Of a DNA stretch of 42,745 nucleotides, positions 42,132 to 42,745 are shown in pieces. The notes under the pieces were generated by a model. That model was not told where the DNA came from. It worked only from the letters and a program-made list of their open reading frames with translations, and ran no database searches. The stretch's first letter is position 1. Every line of letters starts with the position of its first letter. The position numbers and the translations under genes were made by a program. This DNA comes from a virus, in the IMG/VR virus record IMGVR_UViG_3300043446_004804, positions 1-42,745 of that record, one strand, 5' to 3'.

Positions 42132-42380
42132 TCAGAAGTCGAACACATCGCTATTCAGTTGGATGACATTTACAGCAGGGTCATCAAACCGAATACCATC
42201 AGGAGTTTGTGTCATGAACTCGCTGATATATTCAACGAAGTCCTGATACGAACCACACTCACGAGCGATATCATAAAGACCCTCATCATTGAGGATCCAG
42301 AGTGCAACATTCCAGGTCTCATAATTCTCCCAACCGTTATAGGAAATGTCGAGAGCATTGCGTTGGAAAGTGGTAGTCAT
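42132..42380 (-). CDS. Small NYETWNV-family protein, 82 aa
   Basis: The core is YNGWENYETWNVALWILNDEGLYDIA (residues about 14-39), then GSYQDFVEYISEFM. This NGWxNYETWNVALWI signature is common in small proteins of phages and their bacterial hosts (I think it is DUF7249, from memory). No function is known to me. A promoter-like inverted repeat lies 24 bases upstream. Confidence 0.8.
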   Translation of the reverse strand: MTTTFQRNALDISYNGWENYETWNVALWILNDEGLYDIARECGSYQDFVEYISEFMTQTPDGIRFDDPAVNVIQLNSDVFDF

Positions 42381-42425: not shown

Positions 42426-42455
42426 TTTGCACGTCCCCCCTTTCAGTTACTCAAG

Positions 42456-42593
42456 TCATTCAACGTTACTCAAACCATCCTCAATCTTGTCTTGTAACTT
42501 ATAAACGAACTCAACGCTATGTGTCCCACATAAACGTTCATAATGTTGCAACACTTTTTCTATGTGGGACACACAAATCTGTGGTATTCTCAT
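42456..42593 (-). CDS. Possible small protein, 45 aa, overlapping the repeat cluster
   Basis: From ATG 42593 the frame gives MRIPQICVSHIEKVLQHYER, then GTHSVEFVYKLQDKIEDGLSNVE, which reads like a real helical protein; a longer start at 42638 (60 aa) is possible. AGAAAG lies before 42593. Two copies of the TGTGTCCCACAT repeat lie inside it and a third would lie inside the longer form. No family recognised. Confidence 0.45.
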   Translation of the reverse strand: MRIPQICVSHIEKVLQHYERLCGTHSVEFVYKLQDKIEDGLSNVE

Positions 42594-42745
42594 TCTTTCT
42601 GTGTGTCCCATATGAGGATACTTGTTCAAAAAGGGCATAATCTATGTGTCCCACATAACATCCCTTTATTATACCTTATGTGGGACACATAGGTCAAACA
42701 CTATATCTATGTGTCCCACATATGTGTCCCACATATATCTATGTG
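42518..42745. repeat. Cluster of TATGTG-TCC-CACATA inverted repeats (7 copies plus one cut)
   Basis: A 15-bp unit with 6-bp arms and a 3-base centre. Core copies (13 bases) start at 42519, 42562, 42601, 42644, 42678, 42709 and 42722; an eighth begins at 42741 and is cut by the window edge. The copies at 42519, 42644, 42678, 42709 and 42722 are exact; 42562 has one and 42601 two core mismatches. The centre reads TCC in most and GGA (inverted) in those at 42562 and 42678. The last two full copies are adjacent. Confidence 0.9.

Follow-up and report, generated by a model that had tools for sequence, protein, structure and literature searches.

The right end of a 42,745-base virus record (the window), which contains T4-like phage baseplate wedge genes and is probably a fragment of a T4-like cyanophage genome, carries a dense group of short inverted repeats of the form TATGTG-TCC-CACATA, and the question raised by this locus is what these repeats are for. 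The initial annotation proposed cooperative protein binding to an operator array, a replication-origin iteron set, or a partition-like or nucleoid-type site, and overlooked a 60-aa gene, orf60, with three copies in its coding sequence and one in its promoter spacer. Comparison of related loci leads us to consider it likely that the repeats form the operator array of an autorepressor, the orf60 product, acting on a sigma-70-type promoter in T4-like cyanophages.

A recount of the 15-mer matches between 42518 and 42745 agreed with the initial annotation: five exact copies, one with one mismatch, one with three, and an eighth cut by the contig end, separated from start to start by 43, 39, 43, 34, 31, 13, and 19 bp (Table 1). 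The asymmetric TCC centre is present in both orientations across these copies. Three of the copies lie inside orf60, and the other five are spread over its leader, its promoter, and the sequence upstream. When up to three mismatches were allowed, 12 matches to the 15-mer were found in the window, against 1.4 expected (100 shuffles, maximum of 7 matches), and the array is thus not due to chance. All 12 fall inside the array stretch, so that the scattering of the 15-mer, named in the initial annotation as evidence against its reading, was not observed in the window. Similarly, all six sites found in the window with at most one mismatch in the arms lie beyond 42500, and no copy of comparable quality was detected in the window outside 42518-42745. 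At 10.5 bp, the eight copies had a phase coherence of 0.63, which from so few sites is no more than a hint that binding may be cooperative on one face of the helix.

Table 1. Features of the array and of the orf60 region, in window coordinates.
Feature	Coordinates	Strand	Basis or remark
Next gene downstream of orf60, 82 aa, Pfam DUF7249 / phrog_871	42132..42380	-	Similar gene also downstream of orf60 in L055 (GGG lineage)
orf60, 60-aa gene, proposed autorepressor	42456..42638	-	Frame kept, third-position bias, relatives in 15 other loci
Operator copy, intragenic, exact	42518..42532	+	15-mer match
Operator copy, intragenic, 1 mismatch	42561..42575	-	15-mer match
Operator copy, intragenic, 3 mismatches, near orf60 N terminus	42600..42614	+	15-mer match
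O2, putative operator, exact	42643..42657	+	-19 to -5 of orf60 start codon; covers expected transcription start and ribosome-binding region
-10 box TATAAT, predicted orf60 promoter	42668..42673	-	Conserved as TATAAT, TATACT, or (L058 only) TAGACT
O1, putative operator, exact	42677..42691	-	Occupies -35/-10 spacer of orf60 promoter
-35 box TTGACC, predicted orf60 promoter	42692..42697	-	TTGA[CT] at equivalent place in 16/16 loci
Upstream operator copy, exact, immediately upstream of -35 box	42708..42722	+	15-mer match
Upstream operator copy, exact, 2-bp overlap with the 42708 copy	42721..42735	+	15-mer match
Last upstream copy, first 6 bp, then contig end	42740..42745	+	Complete in L021 3620-3634

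The array had been expected to run on past the window. The exact 15-mer, used to scan viral contigs, recovered L021, an independent sister contig containing the same region and the same array, about 90% identical to the window and extending past the array. The expectation was borne out for a few bases only: the eighth copy is complete in L021 and is the last one there, being followed by unique sequence and then by a 57-aa gene (phrog_12516) on the same strand as orf60. The array therefore measures about 240 bp and ends about 9 bp past the window, and its presence in an independent contig shows that it is not an edge artefact.

The stop and the frame of orf60 were preserved in five aligned loci, and close relatives differed mostly at third codon positions, indicating that orf60 is a coding gene. 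An alignment search of viral contigs returned 16 loci, of which 15 were aligned with the window; the sixteenth, L046, has an orf60 sequence and array identical to those of L024. The aligned relatives have identities of 35-97%, all are uncultivated viral contigs, mostly fragments, and the 16 loci represent three lineages and hence not 16 independent events. No significant match to orf60 was obtained in Pfam, PHROGs, or NCBIfam, two different queries of cultured phage records gave no convincing match (one of them chance-level matches only), and no homologue was confirmed in bacterial or archaeal genomes.

The position of the repeats relative to the orf60 promoter, called by consensus match, is a conserved feature of these loci. 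The window promoter reads TTGACC-TATGTGTCCCACATA-AGG-TATAAT, with one copy filling the spacer, and in all 16 orf60 loci, window included, a dyad of the TATGTG-NNN-CACATA type was found between the -35 and -10 boxes of a sigma-70-type promoter. The layout is TTGA[C/T]-(0-1 nt)-site-(2-3 nt)-TATA[A/C]T, in which the site occupies the 17/18-bp spacer; L058 (TTGAT, TTAGACT) has the weakest of these promoters. A second site closely follows the -10 box or overlaps it or the start. Counted downstream from O1, this site lies at 33-34 bp in the lineage of the window and at 23 bp in the two other lineages, one of which (GGG, see below) has a third site at about -18. L048 has a tandem duplication of the promoter-operator unit with a 33-bp period (2.2-2.4 copies). 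The promoter-like sequences of neighbouring genes had no site in their spacers, and when 2.9 million viral contigs were searched for the pattern TTGAC-site-TATA, with any centre, 16 contigs were returned, corresponding to 14 orf60 loci and two chance matches. These results strongly support the operator array among the possibilities first proposed.

Sites of this type were present near the gene at every orf60 locus, and their centre triplet differed between lineages: GGA/TCC in the lineage of the window, GGG/CCC in L052-L058, and TAA/TTA in L050, L051, and L059, the last of which ends before orf60 is complete and shows only two promoter-proximal sites. Site scans with the three centres and the promoter pattern identified 97 loci, of which 75 had a lone site, as expected by chance, and 19 had a cluster (at least two sites within 500 bp). 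At these 19 loci, either orf60 was present or the contig stopped close to the array in the direction of orf60, the gene presumably lying beyond the end. Two loci from an overlapping-pair scan were rejected as chance.

It is conceivable that the operators serve a different protein, encoded by the host or elsewhere by the phage, and that orf60 is simply a gene under its control, all the more so because orf60 has no recognised DNA-binding domain and its role as the binder is one that we infer. We regard this as unlikely, although not negligible. The sites are limited to one locus per genome (in a 115-kb relative contig, 11 of 11 lie inside 0.9 kb), whereas the sites of a host regulator should recur at many genes. 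They also track orf60 and not the neighbouring 57-aa gene, since among 80 loci with the latter, the array was present only where orf60 adjoins. Moreover, the centre shifts by lineage along with orf60. Residue 15 of the protein is R, K, or L where the centre is GGA, GGG, or TAA, respectively (V14-K15 in the GGG lineage), and adjoins the invariant R17 and P19. With three lineages only, a change in step of residue 15 and of the operator centre is suggestive, and the match between protein and centre is not strict, as distal sites in L051 and L056 have mixed centres.

Distal sites were also seen as second dyad clusters several hundred bases downstream of orf60, at +627 to +697 in L050, +755 to +869 in L051, and +615 to +651 in L055, counted from the orf60 start. 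Those of L050 and L051 are immediately upstream of another promoter-like sequence, TTGACA-17/18-TAGACT, and the regulon may thus include a further gene. In L056, TAA-type distal sites (+594 and +617) stand beside a GGG-type orf60 and GGG-type sites, a hybrid arrangement that looks as if it had arisen by recombination.

The repeats could also act as RNA hairpins with a GGA or TCC loop, serving as a translational operator or in mRNA processing, with the copy at -19 to -5 masking the ribosome-binding site. Each copy is able to form a 6-bp hairpin, and the predicted 5' mRNA of orf60 folds well (z = -3.5), as would that of any set of palindromes. However, the arms of the 47 distinct sites contained 58 changed pairs, none of them a compensatory double change, against 32 pair breaks (sense strand) and 26 wobbles, a strong but not absolute result, as the sites were chosen with at most two mismatches, which makes double changes rarer. 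This absence of compensatory changes points to recognition at the DNA level rather than to an RNA hairpin. In addition, copies occur in both orientations, and also in the spacer and upstream of the -35 box, beyond the orf60 transcript. A function as RNA is thus very unlikely. Positions 3, 10, and 13 were invariant in the 47 distinct sites, and positions 5, 6, and 11 nearly so, a pattern that fits two half-sites read by a symmetric protein.

The copies inside the gene are themselves conserved as DNA. In the six orf60 genes of the GGA lineage, synonymous variation was found at 1 of 13 degenerate codons for invariant residues inside the intragenic copies versus 14 of 23 outside them (Fisher p = 0.004), indicating constraint on the silent positions of these copies. 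The GGG-lineage and TAA-lineage orf60 genes gave an ungapped alignment with the window gene, yet have no intragenic copies, and these copies thus arose by substitution and not by insertion. This ungapped alignment with and without copies also bears on the idea that the array stems from a mobile palindrome or from faulty assembly. Several contigs do break at or near the array, as is typical of assemblies at repeats, but the positions of the sites are fixed relative to the promoter, and the array is common to independent contigs, L021 included. Such an origin can practically be discounted.

Two further readings were suggested by the clustering of the repeats. A replication origin with iteron-like sites for a phage initiator would agree with repeats clustered beside a divergent promoter, with the 33-bp tandem repeats, and with two or three DnaA-box-like TTTTCCACA motifs in L021 and L024. 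These motifs, which resemble cyanobacterial DnaA boxes, lie within 45 bp of one another (L021 4093-4136, L024 2579-2599). They are, however, absent from L041, L048/L015, and the other lineages, the GC skew along the window has no lasting sign change, the sites are dyads in both orientations and not direct iterons, and the conserved feature is their position in the promoter. The iteron origin thus received no consistent support, and we consider it highly improbable. Small plasmid partition proteins also autoregulate from repeat arrays, and an operator doubling as a centromere would give a partition-like or nucleoid-type site. Nevertheless, none of the ORFs inspected next to orf60 stood out as ParA-like, and T4-like phages are lytic and release large bursts; we consider a partition function extremely unlikely. 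Like the mobile-element and artefact readings, the origin and partition readings fare worse than the operator array.

The AlphaFold monomer model of the orf60 product has two helices (20-40 and 42-57) forming a helical hairpin after a low-confidence N-terminal arm, which contains the invariant R17-x-P19, with a pLDDT of 70-73 and no strand. Comparison of this model with the PDB and viral structure libraries gave no useful match. The Arc model PF03869 had no match in the window, and the orf60 profile scored an hhalign probability of 4% against a small set of CopG-type sequences. Assignment to the ribbon-helix-helix proteins (Arc/CopG/MetJ) was rejected on account of these negative profile comparisons, the low confidence of the models, and the lack of a useful structure match; the two-helix models are compatible with such a fold without demonstrating one, and membership is not claimed.

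If the locus is autoregulated, the orf60 product, as a symmetric dimer, would most likely bind TATGTG-N3-CACATA and repress its own sigma-70-type promoter. Occupancy of O1 and O2, which cover the -35/-10 spacer and the transcription start with the ribosome-binding region, respectively, would block host RNA polymerase, and the flanking and intragenic copies may raise the local protein concentration or permit cooperative filling. Expression of orf60 would then consist of a short pulse followed by shut-off, and the host-type promoters suggest that it occurs early. The sequence by itself would fit activation as well as repression; an operator in a promoter spacer normally blocks the polymerase.

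The proposed layout works like that of small phage autorepressors whose operator is placed in the -35/-10 spacer, among them the Arc protein of phage P22 (50-60 aa), which acts at an early promoter. Arc shares with orf60 its small size, an operator in the promoter spacer, and self-repression, which is proposed for orf60, but no profile similarity was found between them. The orf60 locus also has many more operators, some of them inside coding sequence, and belongs to a T4-like phage, whereas Arc belongs to a temperate lambdoid phage. By analogy, the role of orf60 may resemble that of T7 Gp5.7, which the cited passages present as a 7 kDa protein that binds DNA and represses promoters of the host polymerase located in the phage genome (PMC5569994). 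Gp5.7 differs in having a winged-helix-like fold, in also contacting RNA polymerase, and in its reported preference for the T7 A1 promoter, and those passages describe no dyad array (PMC5569994). The early-to-middle control of T4 (Alt, ModA, AsiA, and MotA) likewise acts on sigma-70 promoters early in infection, but mainly modifies or co-opts RNA polymerase.

According to published work (PMC5780444), T4-like middle promoters and motA and/or asiA are missing from T4-like cyanophages, and early shut-off in T4 is incompletely understood (PMC2988021); a direct DNA-binding regulator is thus of interest. In agreement with the initial annotation, which knew of no such element in T4-like phages, no account of a comparable system in T4-like cyanophages was found in the open-access literature. 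We tentatively suggest that these T4-like cyanophage loci may represent a class of phage repressor not described before, with an array running through its own promoter and coding sequence and with residue and centre switching together by lineage. Such a repressor could be a direct DNA-binding switch for early shut-off or superinfection exclusion. The locus is a compact candidate, bringing together a 60-aa protein that belongs to no named family, the site to which it probably binds, and the promoter. The three lineages with different operator centres offer a ready-made set on the joint change of repressor and site, and the intragenic copies offer a coding sequence constrained to hold putative operators.

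Finally, other repeated elements were observed in this region. A recurrent leader or promoter-like element, approximately GTGGGCCCTNTAAAGTGTCCTAGTAGTATG, lies on or directly ahead of the start codons of numerous small genes, at 1649, 2547, 3133, 3451, 4257, 4929, 5943, 7994, and 8462 on the minus strand of L015 and also within 547-4212 of L048. A degenerate copy is present at window position 42426 (minus strand), and the stretch around it matches five places in phage S-SM2. L015 also contains, at 445-571, a 33-bp tandem repeat (3.8 copies of GGTCTCAGAGCATTAAAAGGGTATAAGTTACGG) downstream of a TTGACA promoter-like sequence directed away from orf60. This repeat could be an untranslated early RNA, and segments related to it occur repeated in L021, L024, and L041.
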